Below, one piece after another: positions 4,961 to 63,175 of a DNA stretch of 64,000 nucleotides. A program made the position numbers and the translations under genes. The number at the start of each line of letters is the position of its first letter. Positions within the stretch are counted from its first letter, which is position 1. Source of the DNA: Owenia fusiformis (taxonomy: Eukaryota; Annelida; Polychaeta; Sabellida; Oweniidae); the NCBI GenBank assembly GCA_903813345.2, contig CAIIXF020000012.1:34546572-34610571 (forward strand), in the 5' to 3' direction. The notes below the pieces were generated by a model. It was not told the origin of the DNA and did not search any database. It saw nothing but the letters and a program-made list of their open reading frames with translations.

Positions 4961-5286
4961 TAGCATGTGTGCTTCTCTGCCATAGTATTTTCAAAAAGAT
5001 ACATTGTAACATGGCTGAAATTCATTATAAGAGGGCACAGGGTTATTGCACAAAAAAACTAAATAATCTGAAATATCCAAATGTCATTCATGTACAATAT
5101 CAATATACTTTTCCAAATATTATTGCACAATGGTCTCCTGATTTCTTATTTTTGGGGACGGGACCACGGACGGGCTGTCCACAAATTCAAGTAAAAATGT
5201 CAATCAGAATCAGTATTGTCGAGTTCCCTAAGAGATCTCTTGTCTTAACTTACGTCTTAACTTATGTTTAAGCTTATCTCCATAAT

Positions 5287-18400: not shown

Positions 18401-18469
18401 AATGGAAAAATGATATCAACAATTATGAAGCTATATTTCCCAACTATTTCAATGCCCATGGAGATTTTC

Positions 18470-18660
18470 ATAGATATAATACTAGAGGCAAATCAAACTT
18501 CACCCTTCCTAAAGCAAAACTGAAAATTATGGCAAAAAACAATAGCCTTTAGTGGTTACTCCATATGGAACAATCTCCCAGAAGAAATAAAAAAGTCAAA
18601 TTCCATTTCTTTTCTTAAATCAAAACTGAAAAAGCATATTCTCTTAGCTTATTAATCATT
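18470..18660 (+). pseudogene. LINE ORF2 C-terminal end relic
   Basis: It reads TRGKSNFTLPKAKLK, then (after a frameshift) FSGYSIWNNLPEEIKKSNS and FLKSKLKKHILLAY plus stop. 'Y-S-A-x-x-W-N-x-L-P-x-x-I' followed by 'F-K-x-x-L-K-x-x-L' is the terminal signature of many CR1/L2-like ORF2 proteins. It lies in the core of the array-armed element. Confidence 0.75.
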
Positions 18661-19719
18661 AGTTGACTATATCATTTCTTGTTTCTTCAGTAAGAAGGGT
18701 AGGCTCTCAAGGGAGGTACATGGGCCAACCTGGGGGCTGCTCCAAACTACTTAAGGTCTAAAATAATAATTCTGACCATACCAACCTTGGGGAAGGTAAA
18801 ATAATAACTAATATTTTATAAGAATCACACTTTTAACGATTATTTGCGTCAATGCGGTAGCCTGGTATCTTTGAATAATAATTAATGAATCTACACATTC
18901 ATAAAATTTCCCCATGGCATATGGCACCTTCTTGGCTTCAAATGAAACGAGCATCATGGATCCCCCATACCTTTATTTATTATAATCTAACTTTTGTGAT
19001 TACATTCCGGTTTGATTCGTTGACAACATAATGATATACTTCATGATTTAACTACTATATGTACGGGTATTTAAGCATCACCTGTGGTGCCATCTATTAT
19101 TAATAATATGTGTACACATAATGATTAAATGTATGAATAAATTGAGTTTAATTGAACTTGCAATGTTTCAGAATAACCCTTAAAAAGGTAACCATAACAA
19201 TTCTAAAGTTTATTGAACCATATTCAGAGTCACTGTGGGGACTGGTGTCATATTCTAGGTTGTAGGTACCTGATGCAGTGAAAATGTCATCATATATGTT
19301 TGGGTTAACCCACTTATTCCCGTCCACACTCACTTTCCTTTGAGCCGCATGAACATGCAGCAAAACATTCTGTACCTGCAGTGGCACATGAGCAAGTGGT
19401 TTAACTTATTGCTTTGTCCTTGTATCGTTTGCATGTGCAAAATGACTTTGGGATTTTTGTTATATCAAGTTACGGTTTTTTGGTCATTTTAATGGTCTCA
19501 AGAGTAATATGAACCACTTGACATCCAAATCCATTCCCTGGCTCTGGAATCTCAAAAAGTGGTTTGTCAGCATTCATTGAAATGTATAATTGTTATAAAC
19601 CAAAAATGCATCCATAGTTAGTGGTAATGCTCTAATATCATTTTGGATGCTGCAAACAAGTGTAATACATCCAATGATAGTTTGTTTTTATTTTTGAAAT
19701 ATAAACAAAAATAACGCAA

Positions 19720-20080
19720 CTCCCCTAGACCAGAGATCGTGCCTATGTGGACAGTCAATAGAGACAGAAACTCACTTTAAAGTAGAATGTCATATGTTTG
19801 AAAATGAACGATTGAGTCTGTTTGCCTAAATGACTGATATCCATAGTGACTTTTACATGTATACAAGTCTAGGAAAATATTGTATAATAATGAATGAAAA
19901 AAACTGTTCAAAGGACACTTGGAAAATGTATGATAAATATGTTAGTCAAAAGGCGTGAAATAGTTACATTGTATGGTCTCTAATAGGTCGGCATCAACCA
20001 GGAATTGTCTTAATTCATGTATGTATCTTAATGTAACATCTTTAGTGTGTTCGACTTTAATTAATAAATTTACTACTACT
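19720..20080 (+). pseudogene. LINE ORF2 C-terminus relic, zinc-knuckle-like
   Basis: It reads CLCGQSIETETHFKVEC followed by HMFENERLSLF. The C-x-x-C-x(12)-H-x(4)-C pattern is the conserved C-terminal motif of many LINE ORF2 proteins. It is closely related along its length to 34110-34490, including the 'ataggtcggcatc.accag' tail. Confidence 0.7.
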
Positions 20081-20089
20081 ACTAGTATA

Positions 20090-21260
20090 ATATTGTTTCC
20101 ATGTAATATTTGTTTCATTCTTGATGTGATTTCTCAATATTCTGGCGAAGAAATACATGTATAAGCTCTTTCTTATACGATTTCAAAGTTATGAATCCAA
20201 GTTTATTATTTTCTTTTAACTTCCCCCAACCCTAAAATATTAGGGTAGGGTGTGAGATTTTTTCTCATTACATACAATACCCTTTTTATATTGTGCATAC
20301 CCGTTGTAAATGTATTTCTAGGAATTATTTCACAAGTTATAACTTCATAGAAGTCAATTAAAGTAAATTTTGTATTTCATCACTTTGTCATTTAACGTTT
20401 TTTATGACTGTATAAGGGTTAAATTATGCAAATTAGCTTATTTTCATATCAAGATATTTCTTCCGAATTACTGACGTTATAACATAAATTTTGGTGAAAG
20501 AATTAAGTTTGTACCTCATATACTTCCAAAGTTATGAATTAAAGTCCATTTCCATTTGACCCCCCTCAAATATCTGGGTAGGGGGACAATTTTTTTCAGC
20601 GTCGTTATGTTAGATACACTTTTAATATTTTGCACATCTGTTATACATATATAGATGCATTTTTAGGAATTACTTTATTTGTTAAAACTTCATGAGAGGT
20701 CAATTAGAGTAAATGTCGTATTTTATCGCGTCGTCATTTAACAGTTTTTATGACTGTATAAGGGTTAAATTATGCAAATTAGCTTATTTGCGTATCAAAA
20801 ATATTTTTTCTGAATTACTGATGTTATTACATAAACTTTGGTGAAAAAATTAAGTTTGTACCTCATATACTTTTAAAATTATGAATTAAAGTCCATTTTT
20901 ATTTGATCCCCTCCCCTCAAAAATCTGGATAGGGGGAGAATTTTTTTCACAGTCTTTATGTAAGATACACTTCTAATATTTTGCACATTTATTATACATA
21001 TATAGATGCATTTTTAGGAATTATTTCATAAGTTATAACTTCATATGAAGGCAATAACAGTAAATGTGATATAACATCATTTCGTCATTTACTAGTTTTT
21101 ATGGCAGTTTAAGGGTTAAATTATGCAAATAAGCTTTTTTTCATTCAAAATATTTTTTTCTTCATTACTGATGTTATTTCATAAATTTAGGTGAAAAAAT
21201 TAAGTTTGTATCTCATTTACTTCCAAAGTTATGAATTAAAGTCTATTTTCTTCTGACCCC
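20090..21260 (-). repeat. Right array of ~330-bp units (inverted)
   Basis: Reverse-complement units lie near 20180-20560, 20560-20920 and 20920-21260, with 'taaattatgcaaattagctt' and 'tacttccaaagttatgaatt' in each. The innermost piece, including 'tgatgtgatttctcaatatt', matches 18200-18260 in reverse. Confidence 0.85.
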
Positions 21261-31500: not shown

Positions 31501-34500
31501 CTAAATAGAAGCAGACATATATGAATTGATGCTAAATAAGTCATCTTTTAGAAAATTCATGTCTACCAAATGGCCCTCTGACTTCCCAAAATGATTGCTA
31601 TAGACTGGCCTATATTTTACCAAAGAATGCGAACCTATTCATTTTTTTGATTCAGTAGCAAAATTGCTCTCGAAAATTCTCCGAGATTTGTGGTATTTTC
31701 TAGCAGAAATCGCCATCTATTTTGTCATTGTCAATGGCGGGAGATAAAGGTTAATATACGCAAATGATATATGGAACAATGCAGAGGGTAAATGACCTGA
31801 GGTTTGGGTAAATTGAATGTCATAAAAACGAATATTTTCTGCATGCACGATGCATGTTTTTTAAAGCTGTCATAAAAAAAGTTATGGTGCAAATGAGATA
31901 TGGAGCAAAACAAAGGGCAAATACTGTAACTTATATTTTACTAAGGATGATATGTCATAAAAATTAATGATTCAATTCTGCATGCATGTTTTCTAAATAT
32001 GTCATGAAAAGGGTTGAATTATATGCCGTAACTTTGAACTATGAATTTATTCACATTTAAAAAACGCGTCATCAATTAATTTAGGTTATAATCATAAATT
32101 CAATGGGACCGTGTTTAATAAAAGGTCAGAGACCGAACAGTCACCTCTGAATGTAAATTTTATTCAATAAATCACATTTAAAACGTAAGGCATCCCATGG
32201 CCAATCCCAGGATCAGATCATCTCATTGCCAAATCATATTTTCAATAAAAAATTATCGCTAAGAAGAAATAAATCAAAGTGATCTAAATGTTCAAACATC
32301 GTGTGTAGTGTCTACCAAGTTTAAGTAATTTTAGAATTAAAATACGTTGTGTAAGACTTCAACGTTCCTATTAAGCCGCTTTATTCATGTTTTTAAAATT
32401 TTTAAAGTAATAAACTACCGATCTAATGTAAGTTAGAAAATGGAACAAAGTAAATCTACATATATTAATCTATAATATATTATATATATATAGTATAATG
32501 TTAATATTGATGTGTGAAACCACTGTGGTTTCACATCAATTAATTTAATTAATTAAATTTAATTAATTTACTGTCTTTCACATGCTTCTCTTCTCTGAAA
32601 TGATTAAATAATTTAAATTAATAAATAAATAAATACTCTACATTTCTTATGAATGTTTGTCAACACTAACTTTTCCATTTTGCCGTTTTATTTATGTTTG
32701 GCGATTCTCAAAGTTATGAATTTCCTACCTAAAGTAATTCAGAAAAAGGAACGCAGGCATTGGAGTATAGGATGACATTGTACAACGGTTAGCTGCCCGT
32801 CTATTTACACATTTGTCACTAGTGAGCAGACTTTTTGGGGGAATACTCAAAGAAAGGAGAGTGTTCAAGAAAATTATTTTTATCTTACATTTATTAAGTT
32901 TTTAAGTATATCTTTTTAGACGGGACTAATGTTAAACAGGGATGCTGTTAGATAAGAAGTATTAAATGAGAATACCGTGATATGCAATCATTATTTCCAG
33001 GTTCGGAGAGTGCGTTGTTACAGGACATTTTGTTATTTTGATCCTATTGTGGCTTACTCGAGATCCCAGATTTGTACCAGGATGGGCAATCGCTTTTAAA
33101 CAAGGGTAAGTATCTATAACAGAAAATAGTTTTCGATAAAATACATCTAGGGTTCGTCACATTTGGCCTTCGGCAAGTCTACGTCGAAATTGAAAAATAC
33201 CGTCTTGCGTTCCCCAATTTTTAACAGGCCACGTGGGTTCGCTGTCCGAATTATAATAAGTTTCCGTTACACTTTAACAGGGCAAAACCAGGAACAGGAG
33301 TTTTGATTTATGTCGCGGTAACTCTTGTTAACAAAACATTTAATTCACATTTTATTCTGATGAAGCTATGTCACCGATGCTACGGCAGCCATGTTGCTGG
33401 CATTTTCTTTGTTCGTCTGGCCAGCACATATCCCAACAATATTCAAGAGAAATAGTAAGTGAAAAGTATAATTTACTATTACTATTTATTCAATATTGTA
33501 CCACTGATTTAGCGCATTTTATCGTGTCGCATCGTAGATCACATTACATTGTACACTTTTCATTGTAATGTCTGAATTCCCTTGAATTATTTTGTGTTAT
33601 TGTATTTTATGTCGTGCTATGCTATGAGTATTGTACTGTCGTATGCACTGCATAGGGTTCTACTGGGCCGATATAAAGATGGCAGCACCAACAATATTTC
33701 TACACAGATCGATTACCATGCCATCTTTATTTTAAAAGTATTTCTATCGACTTATTGTCGTATGATATTGTTGTGTTACGTTTTTCTTTATGTATAACAT
33801 TTTTGCTGCATTTGTTTTTCGTGTGATAGATCCCAAGCTTGATCAAGTAGCCTCAATCCTTGACTGGGAGACGGTCCATAGCAAGATGCCTTGGCACATC
33901 ATTTTGCTAATAGGTGGCGGTGTTGCGCTTGCAAAAGCAGCTCAGGTAGGTATTACCCAAAAGATGGCGCTGTCGAATGGTTGAAGAGAAAAATTAAAAA
34001 TTTATTGATCAGATGGTTGATTGAAATCAAGTTTTATCAGTGCAATCACTCATGGGATTGTCCAAACTTTATGTTTCGTCTTGTTTATCCCTGCCCATAA
34101 AGATTGAAACTGGGAGATATACCGCAACTCACCTAGACCAGAGGTTGTTTCAGTGTGGTCAGTCAGTTGAAACAGAAATTAACTTTTTAGTAGAGTGTCA
34201 ATTATAAAACTGAACGATCTAGTCTGTTTGCCAAAATGTTAGATTATAATGACTTTGATATGCAAACAAGTTTAGTGAAATACTGTTAGATAAAGAATGA
34301 AAAGACTGTTTAATGAACACTTGGTAAAACAATTATAAAAATGCAAGCCAAACGGCGTAGCATAATGTAACACTCCACTGTCTCTCATAGGTCGGCATCG
34401 ACCAGACACTGTTTAATTTTTATGTATTGTTTAATGTTATATTATGTGTACAGTATCTGTTTTAGTGCGTGGAACATAAATAAAGAAAAATACTACTATA

Positions 34501-37500
34501 CAGGGTGTTCAGGAAATAAAGATAATAATGTCATAACTTTTATTTGTTCATGTATTGCATTGAAAGTTTCAGAGATTATAGTTTCAATTTATTTTAACTC
34601 ATTGTTGGAGTTTCAGTTTCAGGTGATTTGATTGGTCGATTCTGTGGTTGTCATAGCATAGCGAGTAGCGCTAAGGCGGGGCAGGTGGAATAACTGCAGT
34701 ATATTTGCATGTTTTAAATGTTTTAAAAAGAGATTCTATCATGTTTATGACTTAAAATGGATGCTTAAAGATAGTTATAACTATAAGCCTGAAATTCTTT
34801 GCCAATTTTTCAATTTATTCTACATAATTTCCTCCATTTTAGACACAAACTCTTTGCCTCTTGAACCTTCTTCAAATACTTCACAGAATTCTTCTTGACT
34901 CATTTCCTGAAATCTGTTTAACACATGTGAACGTATGGCATAAGTATTCTCAAATGCATGTCCTCTTAAGTACCGTTTTGATTCAGCGAAGAAGTATAAA
35001 TCATTTAGCGCTTGGTTGGGTGAATAAGGTGGATGCTTGAGTTGCTCTAATCGCAGCTGCTCAATTTCTTAGTGGTTGTGGCAGCAGTATGGGAGGGGGA
35101 ATTGTCCAAGTGGAAGAGAAATTGCATCCCGGGTCGCTTTCTATGTAATGCCTGCATTAAGTCATGAAAATCACATTGAATATCATTAAAAGAGCATTTA
35201 TTTGACTTTTATATCATAAATCAAAACAATAGAAGAATTTTATCATGGAGATGCACCAAGAAAGCTTTAAATATGGAGTCAAAATCGGTTTGCCATGCTA
35301 AATGTAACACAGAAACTACTGCAGTTATTCCATGTGCACCGCCTTAGCGCTACTCGCGTTGCTATGCCAACCACAGAAATGACAAATCAAATCGCTTGAA
35401 GCTGAAACTACAAAAGTAAGTTTAAATATATAATCCCTATAATCCCTGCAAATTTTAATGAAATCTATGAATAAATAAAAAAGTAATGACATTATTATCT
35501 TTATTTCCTGAACACCCTGTATATAGCTACTACTATATGTGTATATAATTTTATAAAGGTATGACGAAATAGTCATGTCGTTGATGTACTATGTTTGCCT
35601 CTAGATTCAATGTTTGTATTGCAGGCAATATTTACGACTTGAATTACATAATACATTTTCACAAAATGCAAACACAGTAATTAACAATTCATCAACGCTG
35701 GTGTGCCACAAGGATCTGTTCTTGGAGCCTTGTTCTTTCTAAATGGCATTTATTAACCTAACGTATATGAGTTTGATTAAACTTATTCAATTCTGCTACA
35801 GTTGCATCACGTATACACATTATCAAATAAGGGGACATCTTTTATTTTGAAATGTCCCACTTCTTTGGTGAGACACGGCATCGGTAAATTGGGGTGTCAG
35901 TGTACACGTTGATTGTTTGTTCCCTTACGATTGCTTTCATTATGTACGAATCCTGGAAATCATCCCTCGTTGATTTAATGTTCAACATAGTCTTACACTT
36001 TCATTGACAAACATGCAAAGTTTGCTTCGACAAATTTAGCCAATGTACCATCGATTCTTCGTTCACAAAAATGGATCGGGATTTTTTGAGTGTATTAAAG
36101 TAGAAAGATATATTTCTATTACCCGAGCATGCAGAGTACCTCTAATCTGAATTCCTCTCAATGTGAACACCATTTGTGATCTGATTTGCAATGTTCTCAA
36201 ACCTTAAAATACGAACATCTGCCAATCCGAACACTTTCGGTTGGCCCTAATGGTGTTCAGATGACACTGGTTTACTATATATCAAATCTGCCTTCTTATA
36301 TAGGTTTCTGGACTTTCGGATTGGCTGGCACTAGGCTTGAGAATGCTGACACACCTGCCCCCATGGGCCATGGTACTCATATTGTCAATGTCGGCCTCTA
36401 TGATGACTGAGATTATTAGCAACACAGCTACATCTACGCTATTAATGCCTGTTTTGGGAGCACTGGTAAGTCAATATACTCCATAAGTTTGGAAATCTGA
36501 AGTTTACATCTGGATCATCGCGAGCCTGATTTTGTTTGCCGAGTGGAATAAATTCATCAACTTTTTCAAAGATTTTCGCAAAAAGGATCAGTTTAAAGAT
36601 TGAACCATTAACAGGTTTTATCATGCTAGAAAATAGTACGATTCAAGAATTGTCTTCTTTTCAGTCTTATTCTTGTTATACGCATGATATAGACTAATAA
36701 TGGAAACATAAATTCAAACTCACGCCCAACAATGGCACAATCAGTGATTATGTTGATCGATATCCTTAATTGAGCCATGAAAATAGCGGGTAACCAGGGT
36801 AACACAAATTTATTTAGATGGTAATTTGCCTTCAGGTTGCTTCGAGCTGAATTAATTAATCATCTGGAACACAACAGCGACTTAAATACAGCCATTTTCA
36901 TAGAAACCACTTGCAATCCATTTCAGGCTGTCGAAATTAAAGTTCATCCCCTGTATATTATGTGGCCGGCTGCCATGGGAACCAACCTTTCCTTCATGTT
37001 ACCAGTAGCAACAAGCGCGAATGCTTTTGTTTTCGCCTTTGGCCGACTCAAGATTATGGACATGGTAAGAAATATTGTCATTATTCTGAGATGGGGTTAG
37101 TTCAACAAGTTAAACTTAATCCGGCTTATTCATTAATCTGATCTTACTCGGGGCTGGAAGACATGTCGGATAAGAAACGAGGCCCCTGACTGGGTCTAAT
37201 GTTGTTGGACTAATACGGAGTGTCCATAAACGCTCTTTATAATACTAAGTCTGTGTAAAATGTAGAAACATTATGGACACCTTGTATATCATGTAATGTA
37301 AGGTGAGATCGAGATGATCTGATTTCACGAGACTATTAACAATTCTGACTGATTTTACATAATGGAATATGATTATACACTCCCCTTCATAAGTTTGGCA
37401 ACCTAAAGTTTTCTTTGGATATTATATTAGAGGCAATGAGTGAATCTTAATTTTATACCTTAATCAGGTGCACAATATAGAGGCTCTGATAGCTCAAAAT

Positions 37501-40708: not shown

Positions 40709-40893
40709 GTACAGTATAACCTGTCTACATCAGATACCACTCAAACCAGCCAAAAATGTTCTGATTGAACGTGTTCACATTTTGTTTTTTCCATCAATAG
40801 CCGATCTATAGCCGATCAAAAAGGGACCAAGAAGTGTTCACATTGAGAGGTGTTCAGATTAGAGAGGTGTTCGGATATACAGGTTTTACTGTA
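40709..40893. mobile_element. GTAAAACCTGT-family MITE
   Basis: Left 'tacagtataacctgtctac' and right 'acaggttttactgta' are inverted; internal 'gtgttcacattgagaggtgt' iterations. Related pieces occur at 14340-14490, 46512-46640, 47695-47830, 53605-53824, 59148-59290 and 61025-62443. Confidence 0.7.
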
Positions 40894-40899
40894 CATATG

Positions 40900-41800
40900 A
40901 TGGTACTATATAAGAGGAGGGAAAACCCATGATTCAATTGATGACATACGATTTCCTCCTTTGCGCACCTCCTTTCCCGGAAGTATGTATATCTATACTT
41001 CCCTCCATCTTGGTTTTCAAAGTTTTCAAATTGACCTAGATTTAAACCAATCAACGATCGACTCGCTAAACCAATCAGCGACGATGTCATCTCAATACAG
41101 ATTTACATTATAAGGGCGTGTCATCTTTGAACCCTGGGGTTTCTCCCCCTCTTGTTCTATATAAAGTTTATAAAAGCATTTGCAATGAATACATTAATCC
41201 TACTCTATGTTCTAAAATGACTATGGATTTGATAATACCACATCAAAAATGTACACAAAATATTCAATTCCTATTTTACAATTACAGCCACAATTCAATG
41301 TACACTACAAAATATATTTTACAATTATTTTCATTATTTTTACATTACGATTATCTACATCTTGTTGTATGTTAAATTCACATCTATTATCATATTAAAA
41401 TTGTACTTATTTATTTCTTTAAGTCATATGTAGATGTTTATCACAATGTAAATTCAAGTTGATGTTTTACATTTCAAAATTTAAAAACTTCCGCATAATT
41501 TTGTTTAAAACTTTGTTCAAAATGCTTAAAGTTAAACAAAACAAACAAAAAAATGCACCTTTTTCACCCTGTCAACATATATCCGAACACATAATAATGT
41601 TTCTCATAAAAAATCAATCACTATAACATGAAATAATTCATCTAAATGATGTATCAGAAACTGTTACCTCTTCACAATTTCTTCATACTCAAATATATAG
41701 AAATGTTATGTAGTTTCGCTTAACCTCTTGAACCCAGGCTTTAAAATCAGTTGAAACCAGAGATTTTTTCATTTTTGCCAGCTTTTGATATTTTACTCCA
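40900..41800. other. Intergenic spacer, no gene seen
   Basis: Short frames at 40854-41090 (-) and 41118-41375 (+) have no motifs. AT-rich. Confidence 0.4.
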
Positions 41801-41802
41801 TA

Positions 41803-42425
41803 TACAGGGTGGGCCAAAAAAACGCCACTTTTTTTTCAAAACGCTATAACTTTTTTAATTTTTGATATTAAATCATAATTTGCATACCAAATGAAACTTG
41901 AGGTTGTTATCTAGCCATTGATCATGAATTATACACTTTTACTTGACTAAAATATGTCACCAGCGTCTCACTTAAACATGTGGTGTGCCATGAGAAATAA
42001 GCATTTGCAAAATGTTCCTGATCTGATACGGCCTGATGATCGCCAAGCTAATAGCCCTGATGCAAACCCCAGTGAGTGTAGGGTATGGGAAGGTCTCCAG
42101 GAGATTGTATGAAGGCACCCAATCTAGAAAATTGCTCAACTAAAGCTGGCAATTAAGACAGGTTGAAAAAACTTAGCGAACATTTCATTGATACTGCAAT
42201 ATCAGCAAGGCGACTAAAACTAAAATTCATCATCAATTATGGTGACGGACCAATTGAACTCCCCTTTTAGATCAACTATAATCCAAGTTGGAGGACTTGT
42301 TACATTATATTATTACTAAGAACCGTTGGCACTATATAACTGCAAAATTTGGGGTATGTAGGTTGGAAAATAAAAAAGTTGTAGTGTCTTGAAAAAAAGT
42401 GGCGTTTTTTTTGGCCCACCCTGTA
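41803..42425 (+). mobile_element. Mariner-like non-autonomous element (~620 bp)
   Basis: Ends 'cagggtgggccaaaaaaacg' + 'ccactttttttt' and 'aaaaaaagtggcg' + 'ttttttttggcccaccctg' are near-perfect inverses flanked by TATA. At 42051-42110 the + strand keeps the transposase motif NSPDANPSECRVWEGLQEIV followed by a stop, corresponding to S-P-D-x-N-P-x-(D/E)-x-x-V-W. Internally deleted. Confidence 0.88.
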
Positions 42426-42849
42426 TATACAATGATATACAACAGATGATGCTCATTTAAGTAAAATTAGACGACAGAGATCATTTATACACATTCTAAA
42501 TCAATTTCTGTGTAAATTGGATAAAAATTGTTGAAATAAGAGCAATTTTAGTGCAAAAATTGTGATAGATTTTCTCGTCACTCTGAGTTTCAAGGTCTTG
42601 TCACTCTTGGTCATCAAGAGGTTAGCATTTAAAAGAGATGAATACCCTCATGCATGGCCATTCATTTATGGAGAAAATGGATAAAAAAGATATCCTCACA
42701 AAAAGATGTTCTTCAAAAGGAACATCCCTACAAATCATACCTTTGCTAAAATGATATACTGTAAATGCTTGATAAATAAATATTGAAATGAATTTTCCAG
42801 TGTATCTAAAACACGTTTACATCTGCGATACCTTTAGCTGAGGTACATC

Positions 42850-46300: not shown

Positions 46301-49300
46301 ATAAGTGTCAAATTATTAGTAGCAGAAGCAAGCACTCGGCACACATTAACTAGGTATACTATAGAATCCCTTGATTAGGGAAAAATACCTTCTTTAACCT
46401 CAGGGTCTTCTGTTGGCTCTAAAATACACATAGTAATAAATCCCAAGTCATCTATGATCTATGATCGCTATTGCATAGAAAATATCAAGATCATGAAAGC
46501 ATCTAATAATTGCAGTACAGTTCGACCTGTAAAAGTGGAACACCCTTGGTATCTCGGAAACATGTTCCAGTTTGGAGGTGTTCACTTATAAGAGGTCCAT
46601 TTAACATTATGTCAGTTGGTCATCGGACTCTGAAGTGTTCAGGGGCGTAGCTAGCTTTCAGATTTGGTTTTCACTCAGGGGCCAAAAAATATATAAGTAA
46701 TACTGAATCCATTCTTAAAATGCATTCTATAAGCATTCACATACACAGTGTATGCTAGTTTTCCATTTTTGCATACAGCAGCAGAAATGTGGTCATTTTA
46801 AAAATCCTGCAAGTATTTTCTACAGTTTGTTAAAAGAACCGAAACGGCAACAGTTGATATTTACAGAATTTGCTACTATTGCTTGCAGAATTTGGATTTT
46901 CCCTTGCAGTGCAGAAAACTAGTAGCATGTATGTATTTATAAGTAAGTATCACAATTATTGCTTGTAAAAGCCTGTTTATATTTGGCATTTAAAAAAGGA
47001 CCAAATTTTATCAGTTAATTTTCTATCTATTGGTATATCCTTATAAAGAAATTCAAATTCAAAGAGAAACAGGCTTTAACATGCTAGCCAATGGGGAGTT
47101 AGTATTTCCATATTTGGAGAAGAGTGTATCTTAATTCAAACGCATATAGCAGCAATGTATACAACTAGTGACATCTATAAAAGTGACAAAAATCACTAAT
47201 TAGTCATAGCCCTTAACTCTATGCATCGTTTAAAGATGTCACTAGGGGATAAAACTCACTTTTATGTACAGGGGATGTACAAAAAGTTGTAGAAAAACAA
47301 TGTAAATTTCAGTATGTTTAACCCAGTCATTGCCAAACAACAAAATCTGTCTACTTTCTCTATTGAATCAATTATTTACTTCCTCCTTCAAACGAATTTA
47401 ACTTGTTCTCCGCCAAATGTAGACATTTCGACATCATCCCCACCATAGGCATTTTCTAAAAGCTGACACAATCCCAAAATCGTAAAAATGAAACATCGAC
47501 TTACCTGGCTTAGGCTCGACGCTTTTATCCTGTAGTAACATGATTTCCTGGGATTCTATGGCAACGCCATTAGAAACCTCTAAATGGTACATGACGTTGA
47601 CATCTTCAGGTGAGACGTTTGAGATTGATAGACCAAAGGGTGTTTTTGTTCCATCAGCCTACAAAATAAATAGTGAAAATATAAATAATTTAAAATGCGG
47701 TCAAACCTGTGTAAGCGAACACCTTTGGTACCTCTAAAAAATCCTCCATTCAAACAATCTGTATCCCATTATCATTATATTATTGAGAGCCATTCAAAAA
47801 GTCAAGTTGACCCGTTTAAAAAATGATAGTGAACAGAGTACCTCTCCTACATTAGCTGTAAATCTACCAGTAGAGTCTGTGAATGCAACTTCTGTTCTGT
47901 TGTCGGGAGGCCCCCAATACCTGGAATAGGTGAATAAAATATTAAAAGCTAAGGGAAGGATGGAGTAAAGCAGGGGGAACAGAGTTGTTTTCAGCCATGC
48001 TTTGTTTTTCTTTAATTATATGAGCTCTTGTGGAGGACCATTTATATTTTATCAAAAAAATCATCACTTTTAGGATAAATAAACTCATTAACAAATTAAG
48101 AGAAAGCTAATCCAAAAGGGTGCAAAATAAATATATACATCAATAAAATAAACATAGTTATTACTACCATTTGGCAAAGACAGCGGCTGCTGGTTTCATG
48201 TCTACTTCACACATCAACTCAAAATTGCTGCCAAGTTTGGCAGACTGCTCTTTCTTGCAGGTGAATCTAGGGGCATCTGAAACAACATAAAGCATTTTAC
48301 ACTTCCCTCCATAAGTTTGGCAATGAGAAATCCCTTTTAAATCACTTATTATAAAATACTGTGTTTGGCAATTTTAAAAAATCATCAAAGGACGATTCTC
48401 GGTTTGGAGAACAGTCTCCTGGGCTAATATTTTTTTCATGAAAAATATAGAAATATTACCCAAATTAAACTATGAATATTCAAAAGAGGACATTTAAATC
48501 TACAAGATGTAAAAATATCAAGTTGGTCTGGAGCAGGGATAACGCTCAATTAGACCGATTTTAATAAAATACAAGTCTCGATTTGGGGAAAGAAGTTCAT
48601 CAGTGTACTGTGCTAATATTTTTTTGAGAAAAATCTAGAAATATTACCCAAATTAAATTATGACTATTCAAAAGAGGACATTCAAATCTATATTATGTAA
48701 AAAAATCAAATTTGTCCGAAGCAGGGATAATGCTCATTTAGATTGATGAACTTCGTTCTCCAAACCGAGAATCGTCCTTTCTTGTAAATTACTGAACTAC
48801 ACACCCAAAATGCAATCTCATTTTCGACGCCGTTTCGGTGCCAAATTTTGGTGCCATTTCAGCACCAAATGGACTGACTAGTCCGGTGGCAAATTTTGGT
48901 GTCGAAAGGTTTCGGTGCCGGAACGGTGTCGAAACGGTACCGAAACAGCGCCGAATGTTTTCGATGCCAAACGGCGCCGACTTATATAGGCTGTGAATTG
49001 TAATTAAAGAACAAAATTAAGATTGAAACAATGACAGGTTTTGATATGCTCTACAATAAAACTTCCAGTTGCCAAACTTATGGAGGGGAGTGTATTTTTT
49101 ATTAAATGAAGCCAATCAGTTCGATTCAATATTTTTCATATTTAAATATTCTTTTTAATAAATACAGATAAAGCGTATGCAGCATGTATAATATCAGATT
49201 ATTCTGGTTCATTTCCAAATACCAAGTTGGAATATAATTTTTATATTTCATATTGATATTTTCAAAGCTACAATTCTAATTTCATTTCATTCATTTTTTT

Positions 49301-52300
49301 ATTTTATAAATAAAAATCTTTTACAAATTTTGAGAACATCCCTTACTCTACAGGCAGGGCTTTTGTTCAAAGAAAATTGATACAAAGGTCATCATCATCG
49401 CGCAGAGAACAAGGTTCAACAGGATCAACCCATTAAACCAACCTGATGCACATTTCAGCGGTTGTCATGGTAACCTCAATGCAATTATGCACCTGTATTA
49501 ATATTAACAATAAACGAGTGTAAAATGTTTCTTGAATGAAGAATGATAGCTTGTTTTTCAGGTAGAGGTTTTTTAAATATGGTACATTAAACTATGGGTA
49601 TTTCACATTAATTTAAGAGCTGTAAAGATAGCATGTACAGGCTATATTAGTTCCATTCACACTGAAATATTATTTTTATGTCCTTGATCTTTCCTGAGCC
49701 CTACAACCAATTTAATGGGTTAACGATCAATTTAAATGTGTGTTCTGTATTTTCTGTATTTTTAGAGTAAGATATTGTATAGTAATTATTCAGGACTGTA
49801 AATAAAATTTAGTTTTCTGAATATTTTAATAACTTTTCCAAAATACATTTTCATTGATTTAATTGCTCACTCTTTAAAACAGTGGCCATGGATCATGAAA
49901 TCCCATTTTAGCATATTACATTTGTATTACATATCAATATCACTCTACTATACCTTGCTTTGAATGTTCACGAGCAACCCATTTGGCTTATTAGTAATGA
50001 TTATGTTATTTGTTTTTATTTGTCTGTTCTTTATAAATGGTTTATCGGATGACATTAGATACTAATAAGGTACTTTCAAATACTAAACAATACAATTGGA
50101 CAAACAGAGCATCTTATGCATTTCTAGGGGTTAGGTATAGTAGAGTGAATATATGCAGATTAAAACATTTGGATGTGCATGAAATGCTTGAGTACATGCA
50201 TCGAAAATCCTCTTTCAAATGTAGCATTAAATGTTAATTAGACAGAATTTTATATTTAGCTAGTTCAGCTGATTTTAAATTATCGAAAATTTCAATTAAA
50301 GTGATTATTTATAGTCTACTGGAACGAAAATCAATAATGATGTTCAATGCAAGTACAAAGCTTAATGATACACTATTCTAATTTCTAAATTAATTCGAAT
50401 GAAAACAATATTGAATTTCAGCAGAGACATTAAAAACAGATTTTATATGTCTCTGATTTCAGCATATTGAAGTTTGAAACAAGCAGTGTCTTTATCAAAA
50501 CAATATGATGCGATGCCCTCCCATCTCAAAAGACAATCAAAAGAGCTTGCAAAATAAAATTGCAAGTGTGAATTCAGATCATTGATATATTACACGACTA
50601 TAAAAAGAAGACTTTTGAAAATGAATTTTTTAACAAAACCAGTTTCCTTAAAAAATGCTTCAAACGTGTAAAACCCTCATTCTCAAGGAAATTGGGAGCA
50701 TGTATAATATACTACAAAAGCATAAGACCAACATCTAAATGGATAACTGCTTCAGTTAAGAATTCCAAAAGACCAACGATCACTAACTATGATGTCATTG
50801 TTTCCAAGGTTACAGCAAATGATTAATATAAGAATTCTTAAGTAAACAAAGTTTCCGTTAATATGCCTGGTTGCTATACTTACATTGCATTTCTACAACA
50901 GCTTGAGCCGAGACTGTTTCGTATCCAGGTACTTTAGCCTCACAGCGGATGACGTCACCATTTAGCGTCGTATCCCAGTCGCTTTTTTGCATCTTAAGCT
51001 CTGATTTATAAGTGGTCTGAATAAGGGCTCCAAGTTTCACCTGAAAGAGAAATGGAATGCTTTAAGGCCAGGAAAGCTGAAGGTTCTGAATTACAGGGCC
51101 CCCCAAAAACTTTTTGTATAGAGAAATATGTAACTTTTTGTGTAACATTCTAGGATTACCTAATTTTTTATTGTACGATTTTTGGAGGTACATTGAATTG
51201 TATTGAATTGAAACATTTTTATTTTGCCGAAAATTTTTATTTTTCAAATTTTTCTTGACCATGGTATGAGGTTGTTATTCACCTGCGGGGATGATATGAG
51301 GAATATCCCTTGGATGATATCAATATTTCCCTCGGCCATTGCGTTCCCTCAGGAAATATTTATATCATCCTTGTGATATTCCCCATATCAAATCCCTCCT
51401 GGTGAATAACTTTATATTGCCCGATTACACTAATATATCCCTCTTTCCTTAATAACCATGACAATATCCTATGTCACGTTTCATTCACATATGTGACATC
51501 ATTAATAAAACTAACCATGTCACTATGCGAAATATACCCTTGTTCTTGCCTAATTATAATACCTCCCAAGATTGGCCAATATTGGCAGGACTTGGGCATT
51601 CATTTCATGTAATAGTTATATTAGTAAATACCTGTTCTGGGTCGTGATGTAGGTGATGTTTCATCTCATCAGTGACATCTTTATCTCCAATGAAAGCACG
51701 CACTTCAGCACGACTGTTACTATCTTTCGCAACACATGCAAATCCACCTTTGACATTCTCTTTTAACACAATAGTGTCGCCATCTACTGGTCGATATTTA
51801 TCAGCATCGGGGGCATATTGTTTCAAAATAATATTCACCGGAACTGAAAACAGAAAAGATAGAGTTATAGAGATGGGGTTACTTAAGAGATATTGACTAA
51901 AGAGCAGGGGTAATATCGTCGAATACACCCCACAGGGCTAGGCACAAACATGTTTTTGAGCCTATCCCTAATTCGACGATATTACCCCTGAGGTCTATAT
52001 TACGATTCGAACATGAAAACTCACCAAAATGTTTAGAATATTCATTATGGTCCGCCATTACTATGGCCCGTCGTCATGACGTCACACATTACTCGTATTA
52101 CCAGGGGTATTGTTCACGAATATACCACTGGTGAAATGTTGACATCGTTTACAGTTTATAGAAGGCATGAATACAGTCATGTTCGAATAATATATACACC
52201 CCCCCTCAATAAGATTGGTCTCTTTTTGGATCACTTATCAAAGCCTATTTATGTATGGTGATTTGAAAAATATGTCAAATATGAATTAAACTGTTTAACT

Positions 52301-55300
52301 GAATGTCTAACTTATCCTTCACCAGGCCAAACATTTTTCATTTCAGGAATGGATTAATCAGAACACTTTTTTGGTCCCATTTTTCCTCCCATTTACTCCC
52401 ATGTTAAAAAAAAGTTAAGGAAAAAATACAGATCCAAACAAACAATGAAATGTTCTATAATATGTGAAAATGGCTAAAATTGTAAAGTGAAACATGTGTC
52501 AAATAAAAAAATTGTGTTGGGAGTTACATTCTCATTGCTGAGCTACATGCATGTAAATTTTTATATTTTTTATAGGGGTCTCTTACCATTAAGCTTTACA
52601 TTGGTGTATGTTGGTACATCTTCCTTTGGTCCAGGTAGGGCCTGACATCCTATCTCCCCATCATCTCCGTTCTGAGCATCTACAATGAGAAACAATGGAA
52701 TACAATGGATGTAATGAGTTAAAACAATGGATATAATGAGCTAAAACAATAGATGTAAAGAGCTAAAACAATGGATGTGATGAGTTAAAACAATGGATGC
52801 AATGAGCTAAAACAATGGATGTAATATTAATGAGTTGAAACAATGGATGTAATGAGCTAAAACAATAGATGTAACGAGCTAAAACAATGGATGTGATGAG
52901 TTAAAACAATGGATGCAATGAGCTAAAACAATGGATGTAATATTAATGAGTTGAAACAATGGATGTAATGAGCTAAAGCAATGGAGCTAATGAGCTAAAA
53001 CAATGGATGTAATGAGCTAAAACAATGGATGAATTGAGCTAAAACAATGGATGTAATGAGCTAAAACAATGGATGTAATGAGCTAAAACAATGGATGGAA
53101 TGAGCTCATAAATGGATGCAATGAGCTAAAACAATGGATGGAATAAACTAAAACAATGAATGTAATGAGCTAAAATAATGGATGTAATGAGCTAAAACAA
53201 TGGAGCCAATGAGTAAAACCAATGGATATCAAAACAAATGACAACGAATTTGCATTTCAAAATTCCCTCCTCTTGGAACAATGTACCATATCGAATTCCC
53301 ACCCAAGGACAATATTGCTGCCATGTATACCGTCGAATGGTGTATTAAAATAACATAAAATTGACCCCAAGCAGAAGCAATCACTGGAAGTATTGATCAA
53401 AATAATTTTATTTAATTTTATACACTACTATATCCGGATAACATCCTTATTAATTCCTGAATTAACTTACTTCTGAGTGTACCATAAAGTACCCTTGAAA
53501 TCCAAATTCCAATAAAATGCAAATAGTCACAGGAAGTTATACTCATAATTTAATTGTGTGATTAAGTTAATGAAAACACAGAATGAAATTCTGCACTATT
53601 TAGAAAAGTTAAACCTTTATAAATGGAACACCTTTTGTAAATCAAAATAGTGTTCCACTTTGGGCCGAAGTTCCACTTTGGGCTGAAGTTCCACTTTGAA
53701 AGTGCCTCTGTAAAAGAGATTCATCTTATATCAAGTTGTGTTATTACAGTAAACTGATTTGGAAAAGTGTTCCACAAATAGAGGTGTCCTACTTAAGTGT
53801 GTTCTACAATACAGATTTTACTGTATAGTCTAATGTGTGAGGGTTGATTTGATAATAAGTTTAACCGCAAATAAAGTTACTCATATATTTACAGTGGTGT
53901 CACTTTATTCAATTTGATCCAAATCAACATGTGACCCCAGCTCTCCGCCTCCGCCTTTTAATACGTATCCCCACTTAATAGAATACTGTGGGAATTCAAA
54001 CTGAGTTATTTACCAACTAACGACCTTTATTTTTCAATGACAAAACTAAATACATATTCCTTTAACATTTTGTATGCTTGGTAAATAGCCTTTATCAATA
54101 GAACTATTTGAAGTGCATACTATTTATTCTTAAAATACTGCACTATGACAAACCATTTTCAGATATGTTTTATGGTGTATTTTTCAGAATTGAGATTTTA
54201 GATGTGGTACATACAGTAAAAACATGAGGTTCATCCACATTTTGTATGTCTTAAATGTTATATTGAATTTTGATATATAAATGAGTTGAAAGTGTTTCTA
54301 AATGTTTCTTATTGTGCTTGAAAATGAGCTTCTATTTTTGAGCACCTTGGATGGTCATATCTACTGACTCTTCGCCTCTAACAGACCACCCCCCCCCCTA
54401 CCTCATGCAAGATGAAAAATATACATAGCAATATACAGCCAACCTACAAAAGTACCATTATAGCACCATACTCAAATGGTACAGTAGGGCACCATACTAT
54501 TGATGTTCTGTATGTTGTTTGCAATATAAAGCCAATCTGCAAAAGTACCATACAGCACCATACTCAAATCATACAGTAGGGCACCATACTCATGTACTGT
54601 ATGTTGTTTGCAGATTACAAGGTGTTGTCAATATAGGTAATAAACTCTACTAAAATTGGAGAATTATGATACTGAAAAACATGTTGAAGCATTTATGTTA
54701 ATTGAAGCATTTATTTTAATTGAAGCATTTGTTCTAATTGAAGCATTTAATGATGTTACATCAAACCTTCAAAGAACATGGTGAATATGTTGTTTGTAAT
54801 AATATGACATTATCCAATCTAAATTCAGGCAATTAGAGTTATGTGATAATTAATTAGGACAAGTTGTTAATTGAAACAACTAAAATTATGCCAACACCTT
54901 TTCTGTACATTGAACTTATTTTCAGTTTCTATTTTAGCAACATGTGGTTCAAACTCATAGACAGTGCATCAGAGTATTGCAGCTTTATACCATCTATTAA
55001 ATGCTTTATATCAGCCTCTGGATCGTATATGGTACTTCTTTAAGGCCTCGTATCCCCCTCCCTACATACCCCTCATCTTCAGCAAGGAGAAATGGGTCAG
55101 GAGGAATGGGGGGAGGGGTGCTCAAAAATCTATAGTTCTCATTCATAAGGTAATTCTGTCATAAGGGATATTGGGCTTTGACTACATACATGTATAAACA
55201 CTTTGAGTTAATTTTATACCAAGGACAGGTAAACTAACTATGGGATAAACAAACTTAAAAAGCATAAATAGTACCTTGTATAGTTAGAATCACGGTCCCT

Positions 55301-55535
55301 ACATCAGCAGATTGGGAAAATTCTGTTTTATAACGTCCAGTGGCGCCGAATTCTTCCTTCACAACATGATTGGTCGAAATCTCAACAGCCTTGCCGTCGA
55401 CCTTCTTGAAGAACCTAACAAAGTAGGCGTTACTGTCGAAGCCATCTGAGGCAACGCACGTTACTCTTATTTCTTCACCCTGCAACTTAGGCTGATCTGG
55501 CCCCGTGATCTCTATGACTATTCCATTTACTGCAC
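43209..55535 (-). CDS. GPI-anchored-like three-Ig-domain surface protein (9 exons, 5' end missing)
   Basis: Exons in transcription order: 55535-55275, 52679-52587, 51843-51632, 51040-50884, 48276-48168, 47920-47842, 47658-47505, 46418-46389, 43309-43209. Phases match at every junction, giving about 397 aa. Ig1 (exons 1-2) has cysteines in IRVTC and GEIGC; Ig2 (3-4) in GGFAC and DVIRC. Ig3 (5-7) has LMCEVDM, FAKWYW and MYHLEVSNG, where the expected second cysteine is Leu. A D/E/K/P-rich stalk precedes SSQVAASLTFVIAMVAAS + ILNH-stop: small residues then a hydrophobic run with no cytoplasmic tail, as in GPI signals. A role in cell adhesion or recognition is inferred from this architecture; I do not recognise the specific family. 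NRT and NVS are N-glycosylation sites. The signal-peptide exon is expected beyond 55535 but was not found. Confidence 0.85.
43620..44095. repeat. ~24-bp degenerate minisatellite in Ig-gene intron
   Basis: About 20 degenerate copies of 'acacagccaatgagggcata' + 'caaa'. The - strand frames at 43621-43860 and 43805-44077 (LIGCVC, CPYWL iterations) are its translation. Confidence 0.9.
44356..44464. repeat. Short hairpin
   Basis: 'aggaccagtctttttc' and 'gaaaaagactggtcct' are perfect inverses about 75 bp apart. Confidence 0.7.
44470..45380. other. Intronic DNA, nothing recognised
   Basis: The frame at 44522-44791 has no motif I know; the rest is AT-rich. Confidence 0.4.
45386..45595. mobile_element. 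CAGTGATCTC MITE, complete copy (~210 bp)
   Basis: Left 'acagtgatctcgctagga' and right 'actggggagatcactgta' are inverted, flanked by TA. The interior 'ctcattttcacaattcagac' matches 6715-6735 and 8828-8850 in reverse. Confidence 0.8.
45710..46040 (+). repeat. TTTGCCTCCCTCATCCAA minisatellite
   Basis: A dozen imperfect copies of 'tttgcctccctcatccaa' with spacers such as 'taaacatga'. Frames at 45731-45916, 45901-46089 and 45933-46157 are translations of it. Confidence 0.85.
46389..46418 (-). CDS. Ig-protein microexon (30 bp)
   Basis: Between 'tattttag' and 'g|gtattt', in phase 1 on both sides, it adds EPTEDPEVKE to the acidic stalk. Its symmetric phase means it could be skipped without shifting the frame, so alternative splicing of stalk length is plausible. 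Confidence 0.75.
46512..46640. repeat. Partial GTAAAACCTGT-family element
   Basis: 'tacagttcgacctgtaaaag' + 'tggaacacccttggtatc' and 'gaggtgttcacttataagag'. Same internal wording as 53620-53820. Confidence 0.55.
46640..47500. other. Intronic DNA, nothing recognised
   Basis: Dispersed 'ggggcgtagctagc' type sequence at 46643 suggests more repeat debris, but no element ends were placed. Confidence 0.35.
47505..47658 (-). CDS. Ig-protein exon 7 (end of Ig3)
   Basis: It reads ADGTKTPFGLSISNVSPEDV then NVMYHLEVSNGVAIESQEIM and LLQDKSVEPKP. S-I-x-N-V-x-P-E-D is the E-F loop of an Ig domain, and the F-strand reads M-Y-H-L rather than x-Y-x-C. Phase 0 in, 1 out. Confidence 0.88.
47842..47920 (-). 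CDS. Ig-protein exon 6
   Basis: It completes the W codon from exon 5 and reads YWGPPDNRTEVAFTDSTGRF then TANVGE. It contains the NRT glycosylation site. Acceptor 'attccag' and donor 'gag|gtactc'. Confidence 0.88.
48168..48276 (-). CDS. Ig-protein exon 5 (start of Ig3)
   Basis: It reads APRFTCKKEQSAKLGSNFEL then MCEVDMKPAAAVFAKW. Two cysteines sit close together (FTC and LMC). The acceptor lies about 20 bp from the end of a MITE at 48300. Confidence 0.9.
48386..48780. repeat. Nested palindrome with direct duplication
   Basis: Outer inverse pair 'aggacgattctcggtttgga' / 'tccaaaccgagaatcgtcct'. Inside, 'aaaatatagaaatattaccc' + 'aaattaaa' + 'tatga.tattcaaaagagga' occurs twice (48440 and 48628). 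Confidence 0.8.
48820..48990. repeat. GGTGCCGAAACGG short iterations
   Basis: Repeated 'ttcggtgcc', 'ggtgccaaattttggtg' and 'cgaaacggtaccgaaacag', locally self-complementary. Confidence 0.6.
49100..50880. other. Intronic DNA, nothing recognised
   Basis: No exon or element ends were found between Ig-protein exons 5 and 4. The frame at 50037-50237 has no known motif. Confidence 0.4.
50884..51040 (-). CDS. Ig-protein exon 4 (end of Ig2)
   Basis: It reads VKLGALIQTTYKSELKMQKS then DWDTTLNGDVIRCEAKVPGY and ETVSAQAVVEMQ. N-G-D-V-I-R-C-E-A is the F-strand. Acceptor 'tctctttcag', donor 't|gtaagt'. Confidence 0.9.
51264..51415. mobile_element. Hairpin repeat (~150 bp) in Ig-gene intron
   Basis: 'ggttgttattcacctgcggg' faces 'ccctcctggtgaataac', and 'gatgatatgaggaatatccc' faces 'ccttgtgatattccccatat'. 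Nested 'gatatcaatatttccctc' and 'gaggaaatatttatatcatc' complete the stem. Confidence 0.7.
51632..51843 (-). CDS. Ig-protein exon 3 (start of Ig2)
   Basis: It reads VPVNIILKQYAPDADKYRPV then ENVKGGFACVAKDSNSRAEV and HLHHDPEQ. G-G-F-A-C-V-A is the B-strand. Phase 1 in, 0 out. Acceptor 'tgttttcag', donor 'cag|gtattt'. Confidence 0.9.
51900..51992. repeat. Hairpin with GGGGTAATATCGTCGAAT arms
   Basis: 'aggggtaatatcgtcgaat' and 'attcgacgatattacccct' are exact inverses around an imperfect 'ggctaggcacaaacatg' loop. Confidence 0.8.
52000..52560. other. Intronic DNA, nothing recognised
   Basis: No exon or placed repeat apart from a short C run near 52199. Confidence 0.4.
52587..52679 (-). CDS. Ig-protein exon 2 (end of Ig1)
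   Basis: It reads DAQNGDDGEIGCQALPGPKE then DVPTYTNVKLN. D-D-G-E-I-G-C-Q-A is the F-strand with its cysteine. Phase 1 on both sides, 31 codons. Confidence 0.88.
52690..53225. repeat. 22-bp minisatellite in Ig-gene intron
   Basis: About 24 copies of 'aatgagctaaaacaatggat' + 'gt', with a longer block 'gatgtaatattaatgagttg' repeated at 52817 and 52938 as part of a higher-order unit of about 121 bp. It starts about 10 bp upstream of exon 2's acceptor in transcription sense. Confidence 0.92.
53605..53824. repeat. GTAAAACCTGT-family element
   Basis: 'aaatggaacaccttttgtaa', several 'gttccactttgg(g/c)', then 'gtgttctacaatacagattt' + 'tactgta'. Confidence 0.6.
53825..55260. other. Intron 1 DNA with short local repeats
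   Basis: Short duplications only: 'gcaccatactcaaat' blocks at 54460-54600 and three 'ttaattgaagcattt' at 54690-54750. No exon seen. Confidence 0.45.
55275..55535 (-). CDS. Ig-protein exon 1 of the readable part (Ig1)
   Basis: Enters in phase 1: AVNGIVIEITGPDQPKLQGE, then EIRVTCVASDGFDSNAYFVR and RYKTEFSQSADVGTVILTIQ. V-T-C is the B-strand. Reading through the acceptor gives a possible start MTSCILCVLGAV, but the 'tgtgttttag|g' acceptor and phase-1 pattern favour an upstream exon. Confidence 0.9.
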
Positions 55536-55757
55536 CTAAAACACATAAAATACAAGATGTCAAGATTCAGGCTAAATTAAGTATTTTTTAGTCTTGATTC
55601 CAGACCTTCAGTTCCTGTTGTTGATGTAGGATGGGGGAATCTTGAAGCAAAACAAAGTATTTTATTACCTTTGGATATCATTTTCAGTTTTAGTTAAAAC
55701 ACATCTGAATATTATTGTAATGACCTTCGATATCATATTGCTAATACAATCTTAGCT

Positions 55758-55990
55758 GTGGTGGCTATCCTTTATGGCTCAGGGGTAGAGCATGTGACTC
55801 AAGAGCGGAAGGTCCTGGGTTCGATTCCCGTACGGGGCGTTGAATTTAGCACACTCTCTGAGTCTAGTATCTGGCTCGGTTCACTACAGCACCCAAACGG
55901 ATGTGCCCAAGGGTCGTTACATTATAGGTTTGGTGAGGCTAGTGAGGTATAAAAGTTGGTGAGGCTAATTGCCTCGCCTGGCTCATGTTC
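55758..55990 (+). mobile_element. tRNA-derived SINE, copy 1
   Basis: A-box-like 'tggctcaggggtagagc' at 55775-55791 and B box 'ggttcgattcc' at 55818-55828 are 26 bp apart, with the tRNA T-arm 'ggtcctgggttcgattcc'. The non-tRNA body 'gaatttagcacactctctga' + 'gtctagtatctggctc' is shared with copy 2. No intact cloverleaf, so not a tRNA gene. Confidence 0.8.
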
Positions 55991-59599: not shown

Positions 59600-59765
59600 G
59601 CACATCGGGGGGGGGGATATAGTGTGATGAGCCAGATACTAGAACTGAAAGGGAATGTGCTAAATTTAATGCACCGTGTGGGAATCGAACCCAGGACCCT
59701 CTACTCACAAGACTGACACTCTACCAATTTAGCCAAAGGGGCTAGACACTATAGTCGAGGTAGTA
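59600..59765 (-). mobile_element. tRNA-derived SINE, copy 2
   Basis: On the - strand: A box 'tggctaaattggtagag' (59735-59719) and B box 'ggttcgattcc' (59691-59681), then 'attaaatttagcacattccc' and 'gttctagtatctggctc', colinear with copy 1. Confidence 0.8.
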
Positions 59766-61020: not shown

Positions 61021-61024
61021 TTGT

Positions 61025-62443
61025 ACAGTAAAACCTGTGTAAATGAACTCCTTTGACATATTAATAGGAGTGTTCAATTTTGGAGATGTTCAAGTAACAT
61101 AAATTAAGTTCAATTCATAATATGAGACTTAGAAAAGTGTTCTCCTGGTAGAGGTGTTCAACTTACAGAGTTTTCATTTTGAGTTTATGCATTTTAAAAA
61201 GTGTTCCACTTATAGTGTTCCACTAACCACCCTATGCAGACAGAGCCTGTGGGAAATATTGGGTGTGGAGCAAATGAGCGGAGGGTGCGGAGCTAACGGT
61301 TATTTTTGAATTTAAATTTGGGATATTTCTGAAACTAAGCCGTTTTGGGACTTCAAATATACCAAGATATGTGTATTTGACACCAAATATCAATACAGTT
61401 GTGAAAATAGTAGTGCAATTCATTCTATAGCGACGCAGTGTGCCTTAAACCTTTCCCAGACCTATATATTTTGAAATTATCCTTTTAATACTGAGTCCCC
61501 AGCATTCATAAAAAATGGTGTTCAAGGTGCACTATCTATACAAATTATTTTTGCATCTTGGAAGCCAGGCAGTATCTGTGTGATTTTATAAAAATTCGGA
61601 ATTTTTTTCAGATATGAGCCCCCTCTAAATATTGGGTGCGGAGCAGCTCCATAAACGTAGCTCCGCACCCAATATTTAGAGGGGCTCATATCTGAAGAAC
61701 ATTTCCGAATTTTTATAAAATCACACAGATACTGCCTGGCTTCCAAGATGCAAAAATAATTTGTATGGGTAGTGTATCTTGAACACCATTTTTTATGAAT
61801 GCTGGGGACGCAGTATTAAAAGGATAGTCTCAAAATATATAGGTCTGGGAAATGTTTAAGGCATACTGCGTCGCTATAAAATGAATTGCACTACTATTTT
61901 CACAATTTTATTGATATTTGGTGTCAAATACACATATCTTGGTATATTTGAAGTCCCAAAACGGCTTAGTTTCAGAAATATCCCAATTTTAAATTCAAAA
62001 ATGACCGTTAGCTCCGCACCCTCCGCTCATTTGCGCCGCACCCAATATTTCCCACAGGCTCTGTCTGCATAGGGTGCTAACAGAGGTTCATTTTATATTT
62101 AAGTATATCAGTAGTGGGACTTGGAAAAGTGTTCCATTTATGGAGGTGTTCTACTTTATGCATATTGCATAATAGACTTAGAAAAGTGTTCCACTTATAG
62201 TGTTCTACTAACAGAGGTTCATTTTAAATTAAGTAAATCCGTAATGGGAGTTGAAAAAGTGTTCCACTTATGGAGGTGTTCTACTTTAAATGCATATTGC
62301 GCCTCTAAAATGGGCCTTTTGGGTTTGGGGGTTTGGGCCCCTCTTGCTAGCTTCTGAATCCGCTGGTAAATGCATATTGCAAAATGATATTTGGAAAAGT
62401 GTTCCGCTTATGGAGGTGTTCTACTTTGTTAGTTTTACTGTAT
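61025..62443. mobile_element. Composite GTAAAACCTGT element split by the palindrome
   Basis: Left end 'tacagtaaaacctgtgtaaa' at 61025 and right end 'tttgttagttttactgta' at 62443. Between them are tandem 'aaaagtgttccacttat' + 'ggaggtgttctacttt' units. The 849-bp palindrome is inserted in one such unit. Confidence 0.65.
61228..62076. mobile_element. 849-bp near-perfect palindromic element with 5-bp TSD
   Basis: Ends 'caccctatgcagacagagcc' and 'ggctctgtctgcatagggtg' are exact. The two ~420-bp arms pair with only scattered mismatches to a centre of about 20 bp near 61655 ('gcagctccataaacgtagct'). 'ctaac' flanks it on both sides (61223-61227 and 62077-62081). The related unit at 62204-62225 reads 'tctactaacagaggttc' with a single 'ctaac', i.e. 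an empty site. The mirrored frames (MNCTTIF.., 61423-61232 and 61881-62072) are a by-product of the palindrome. No transposase. Confidence 0.92.
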
Positions 62444-62689
62444 ACATGATATTATAAGGTCAAGAAGAATTGATTTTTCGTCAGATGCATTATTTCAAAG
62501 GAATCACCTACTCAGAAACTCCTGCCCAAGGGCTATACTTCACAAGATCTTACATATTATGTCATTACGAATCAAGCCTCTGTGTTTGAATTGGATATTC
62601 TCAAATATTACCCAAAGGCTCAAAGGAGGAAGATAAGGCTCAAATTGGTACTATTGACAAAAACACAATGTTAATAAGCAAATGCATAT

Positions 62690-63175
62690 TAGCATTTCTA
62701 ATAACCACTGTATTTAACCACATGTAAATATACACATGTACATGAGAACTGTACATAAGCATATGTTAATAAGCACTGTACATAAGCACATGTGAATAAG
62801 AATTGTACTTAAGCACATGTTAATAACCAGTGTACCTAGTAGGCACATATTAACACACATATGTTAATAAGCACTATACATATGCACATGTTAATGAGAA
62901 TCGTACTTAAGCACATGTGAATAAGAATTGTACTTAAGCACATGTTAATAACCACTGTACCTAGTAGGCACATATTAACACACATATGTTTATAAGCACT
63001 GCACATGAGCACATGTTTATAAGCACTGTATATAAGTATATGTTTATAAGCACTGTATATAAGCACATTTTATTAAGCACTGTATATAAGCACATTTTAT
63101 TAAGCATTGCAAATAAGCTCATTCTATTAAGCATTGCACATAAGCACATATTTAATGAGCAGTGTTTAAGTGAAT
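62690..63175. repeat. ~27-bp minisatellite AAGCACATGTTAATAAGCACTGTACAT
   Basis: About 18 imperfect copies; an ~110-bp higher-order segment ('cacatgttaataaccactgt' + 'acctagtaggcacatattaa') occurs at 62813 and 62938. Frames at 62836-63149 (-) and 62986-63207 (+) are its translation. Confidence 0.9.

Follow-up and report, generated by a model that had tools for sequence, protein, structure and literature searches.

An 849-bp near-perfect palindrome lies at positions 61228-62076 of the window, by which we mean the whole 64,000-nucleotide stretch of DNA that was analysed. Its left arm (61228-61644, plus strand) runs to a 15-nt centre (61645-61659, the strict loop), and its right arm (61660-62076, minus strand) is an inverted copy of the left. 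The terminal sequence is CACCCTATGCAGACAG, giving the element CACCC...GGGTG ends. Alignment of one arm with the other yielded 398 identical bases out of 416, with 18 mismatches and 2 gap columns; the first mismatch occurs at position 39, counted from the element end, and the centre is enclosed by 25-nt stretches with 100% complementarity. The initial annotation had proposed these coordinates and this end, together with near-identical arms and a tiny loop, all of which was borne out. Exact inverted repeats spaced within 1 kb reach 78 nt in the window, which exceeds chance, as 8 Markov-resampled windows reached 15-19 nt.

The arm mismatches comprise 12 transitions and 6 transversions, corresponding to a K2P of 0.045. 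If the arms were identical at insertion, this value represents the summed change of both; an age drawn from it would shift in either direction if the arms had undergone gene conversion or had been unlike from the start. The palindrome had also been described as young, which held in a relative sense only: among the 11 pairs of at least 100 nt in the 25 longest of 56 inverted pairs, it shows the highest complementarity (95%, versus 81-90% for the others), whereas its arms have already diverged to the extent given above. Among the same 25 longest pairs, a 57-nt inverted pair exceeds the palindrome, with 98% complementarity.

The palindrome splits a host repeat (61024-62443) with TACAGTAAAAC at its start and GTTTTACTGTA at its end; this repeat is TA-ended and contains two tandem units of ~131 bp, one of which is broken by the palindrome. 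CTAAC is found on either side of the insertion, at 61223-61227 and 62077-62081, and the intact neighbouring unit (62182-62300, plus strand), a paralogous empty site, holds a single CTAAC at 62208-62212. Once the insert and one CTAAC were removed, the interrupted unit and its neighbour shared 109 of 117 aligned bases, and the alignment had 3 gap columns. Because CTAAC flanks the palindrome and occurs once in the neighbouring unit, the borders and the 5-bp target duplication (TSD) are fixed; given the symmetric ends and this same unit, 5 bp is the sole duplication length that fits, as determined from one insertion. The CTAAC duplication claimed by the initial annotation was thereby confirmed at both flanks, and the in-window empty site that it reported does exist as an uninterrupted unit, albeit a paralogous tandem unit and not the allelic site. 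The host repeat is older than the palindrome insertion. Its relatives in the window include sequence resembling a unit at 53688-53804 and similar ends at 40709-40894, the matches of these ends being weak by themselves (E 0.03). The host repeat also harbors a 66-bp piece (62301-62366) flanked by the 14-bp direct repeats TAAATGCATATTGC (62287-62380), which resembles a second, retroposon-like insertion, and an array of 27-bp tandem units lies just downstream, at 62665-63174.

Fourteen open frames of at least 30 aa touch the palindrome, the longest of which (97 aa) spans the centre. Ten frames of the window, two from the palindrome and eight from elsewhere, were scanned against Pfam: nine gave no match, and the match of the remaining one fell below its cut-off (E 0.088) and was disregarded. 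The two palindrome frames scanned, out of the 14, showed no match at E 0.1, and Rfam returned no match inside the palindrome at gathering thresholds. Elsewhere in the window, tRNA-like matches were obtained at 59670-59742 (minus strand) by Rfam and at 55768-55838 (plus strand) by ARAGORN, each missed by the other tool; these may be tRNA-derived repeats. Several frames at 47434-55566 (minus strand) appear by eye to be exon-like and to belong to a secreted, perhaps immunoglobulin-like protein, with no acceptable Pfam match among the four tested.

The motif GGGTGYGGMGC is present in six copies in the palindrome, three per arm. Two subterminal copies of the form GGGTGYGGAGC are located in the left arm at 61261 and 61283 (61261-61293, plus strand), with two subterminal copies in the right arm at 62011 and 62033 (62011-62043, minus strand); the inner GGGTGCGGAGC copies start at 61634 in the left arm (plus strand) and 61660 in the right arm (minus strand), together covering 61634-61670. 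A search that allowed up to one mismatch to GGGTGCGGAGC detected no further copies in the rest of the window. By the same measure, a three-member 11-mer family was also observed in 1 of 30 shuffled arms, so the clustering of the motif is modest relative to chance. Because one shuffled arm in this set equals the motif family, a role of the repeats as transposase-binding sites is only a suggestion. For Galileo, a reference cited in the excerpt of PMC4079207 indicates by its title that binding sites are repeated in long arms.

Long inverted-repeat elements are common in this window. We examined seven other such structures. Four of them have TA at their ends, the ends being of the CAGGGTG type in three and CACTCCCC in the fourth; for three of the seven, ends or duplications were not settled, and inspection by eye revealed no 5-bp duplication at any of them. 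The CAGGGTG-type structures, whose ends adjoin TA, lie at 34497-35523, 11048-11863 (right end imperfect) and 41800-42428, and two of these three contain frames that resemble mariner transposase remnants by eye, with no Pfam match. The 877-bp structure at 1550-2426 has TACACTCCCCTCC...GGAGGGGAGTGTA ends, of the form CAC...GTG, with 98% complementarity over the outer 57 nt and apparently a TA target. Further inverted-repeat structures are located at 3948-4963, 7553-7964 and 17356-20993, one of them ~3.6 kb in length. The palindrome at 61228-62076 differs from these elements in its ends and its TSD, and the previous statement that it is unlike the TA-flanked elements of the window stands, CTAAC being its flanks in contrast to TA at four other structures. 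We rejected a TA-target element as the identity of the palindrome, since its flanks are CTAAC and its ends differ.

Searches for relatives covered the window itself and prokaryotic and viral collections. Within the window, blastn of the palindrome revealed no second copy, and the 16-bp end, at up to four mismatches, occurred at three other sites, each with four mismatches. In IMG/VR, the 19-bp end, the centre with a variable loop and three inner pieces all gave zero hits; the 16-bp end was found in two contigs with similarity limited to 16 and 17 bases, which we took as chance matches. Among GTDB contigs, the 20-bp end gave zero hits and the centre pattern gave 75 loci, all with bacterial record titles. 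A blastn comparison of the whole palindrome with 77 pattern loci yielded none better than E 0.11 among the best 20 matches listed, and plasmids and phages provided no match at E 0.01. No coding partner of the palindrome was found in the prokaryotic and viral collections, and the 12 bases CACCCTATGCAG were not found in the literature searched. Because the collections searched were prokaryotic or viral, the lack of hits in them carries little weight for a family of eukaryotic elements. With its CpG ratio of 0.49 and its many repeats, the window appears to come from a CpG-depleted eukaryote, and we suspect a mollusc.

The palindrome, its exact ends, the 5-bp duplication and the single CTAAC of the neighbouring unit can all be read directly from the DNA, and we regard the palindrome as a real, well-delimited, ordinary insertion of a known structural kind. 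With a probability of roughly 0.9, it is a non-autonomous cut-and-paste DNA transposon of the palindromic (foldback/MITE) type. Inverted repeats fill nearly the whole element, a TSD is present and no transposase was recognised in the two of its 14 frames that were scanned against Pfam, as in foldback elements and palindromic MITEs. In the mechanism that we propose, a transposase made elsewhere in the genome, probably of the DDE/D type, would have recognised the two identical ends; the palindrome would have moved as DNA and been joined to the target with a 5-bp stagger, and gap filling would have produced the CTAAC duplication. The palindrome itself may have arisen when one end of a longer parent was copied in inverted form, for instance through template switching in gap repair. 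Two copies of that end, made in opposite orientations by such repair, would be expected to leave a palindrome with almost no loop. We do not claim mobility as a family, the palindrome being a single copy across the window and the prokaryotic and viral collections.

Three other explanations were weighed against a non-autonomous transposon. Missed hairpin adapters are a source of near-perfect palindromes with a tiny centre, and the palindrome could accordingly have been created during sequencing or assembly, for example from a read turned back on itself. We consider this extremely unlikely because such a read would carry inverted flanks as well, whereas here the inversion ends exactly at both element borders and the flanks are direct, rejoining the host repeat; moreover, the 5-bp duplication sits at these borders, and the 18 arm differences are spread along the arms. 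Alternatively, the palindrome might be transcribed and fold into long double-stranded RNA, with pairing maintained, thereby acting as a source of hairpin RNA or small RNAs. The predicted RNA fold of the plus strand reached -721.2 kcal/mol, far below the mean of -201.5 (sd 6.35) for 20 shuffles, which agrees with the earlier proposal that a transcript would form one long double-stranded RNA. In such a plus-strand transcript, 10 of the 12 arm transitions lead to G-U and 2 to A-C (one-sided p 0.019), a skew that was noticed post hoc among few changes and that may stem from chance, from a strand bias in mutation or from selection that maintains pairing. However, the same fold would result from any transcribed near-perfect palindrome, and the Rfam result described above also speaks against this possibility, as does a mollusc survey that reports no sign of a dedicated siRNA pathway and counts only if the host is a mollusc (PMC12479628). 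A small-RNA source, which the initial annotation had suggested and for which the predicted fold is the support, is unlikely, and it could be compatible with the transposon reading.

The remaining explanation, that the palindrome is a non-autonomous derivative of a Transib or RAG-like transposon mobilised by a RAG1-like transposase, draws on its CAC ends and 5-bp TSD, both of which are features of protostome RAG-like transposons in the excerpt of PMC7204232; the same excerpt describes non-autonomous RAG-like elements from an oyster and several deuterostomes. Beyond CAC, the resemblance does not continue. The CACCCTATGCAGACAGA end agrees with the RSS heptamer at 4 of 7 positions and likewise with the ProtoRAG heptamer at 4 of 7, and with the protostome RAG-like consensus at 6 of 17, a score matched or surpassed by 98% of random sequences that start with CAC; positions 4-17 therefore fit this consensus no better than chance, and its A-rich positions 8-10 are absent from the palindrome end. 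The TSD contains 2 G+C out of 5, in contrast to the G+C bias published in PMC8289069, and a mollusc survey reports a single Transib element (PMC10294476), which counts only if the host is a mollusc. Because the end beyond CAC fits poorly, we do not claim Transib or RAG-like membership, and we judge it very unlikely.

With regard to superfamily, the non-autonomous transposon that we favor is best compared with known elements by its ends and TSD. The ends of hAT elements usually start with CAG, whereas the palindrome starts with CAC. Within hAT, the excerpt of PMC12730594 assigns a 5-bp TSD to hAT5, as in the palindrome. The same excerpt describes the CMCT clade (EnSpm/CACTA, Mirage, Chapaev, Transib, Plavaka, ESTA and Lanisha) as having CA...TG ends in most cases and TSDs of 2-5 bp, both of which the palindrome shares; transposases that carry C(2)C and H(3-4)H motifs are what define this clade, and the palindrome is likened to it by its ends and TSD. 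Affiliation with the CMCT clade, of which Transib and RAG-like elements are one part, is a possibility that we consider appreciable but less likely than not. In overall architecture, the palindrome resembles palindromic MITEs and foldback elements such as Tetris and Galileo of Drosophila: the inverted arms are long, a middle domain is small or missing and no coding capacity is recognised. Tetris is likewise reported in the excerpt of PMC4079207 to be without conserved ORFs or a known coding partner; it is ascribed to Mutator, as are most foldbacks in that excerpt, and its TSDs of 8-10 bp differ from the 5 bp of the palindrome. No tandem array comparable to TIR-220 was seen inside the palindrome arms. 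A Mutator-type foldback was rejected, the TSD being 5 bp and not 8-10 bp.

The initial annotation had suggested that the palindrome may belong to an undescribed superfamily, a suggestion that we do not uphold. TSDs of 5 bp are already known in Transib and RAG-like transposons (excerpt of PMC7204232) and in hAT5, the range of the CMCT clade fits, and one copy cannot set the TSD length of a family. Under the Repbase rule, as given in the excerpt of PMC4455052, two non-autonomous elements belong to one superfamily if their TSDs are of equal length and positions 1-11 of their ends align with at most one mismatch; because the palindrome is a single copy, a new superfamily cannot be argued. It is conceivable, and about as improbable as a Transib or RAG-like derivative, that the palindrome represents a lineage in which the ends are CACCCTATG and the duplications always 5 bp, and that the transposase of this lineage would fall outside the named superfamilies or form an undescribed CMCT branch near Transib/RAG; pairing of the arms may then have been maintained because the plus-strand transcript is of importance.

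In summary, the palindrome exemplifies cleanly a type of element that is already known. Having exact ends, an exact duplication and an intact neighbour in one window, it provides a good seed for a genome search that could name its superfamily. If its coding partner were RAG-like or of no known superfamily, the finding would bear on the diversification of transposase families; otherwise, it would represent routine annotation of a repeat-rich genome.
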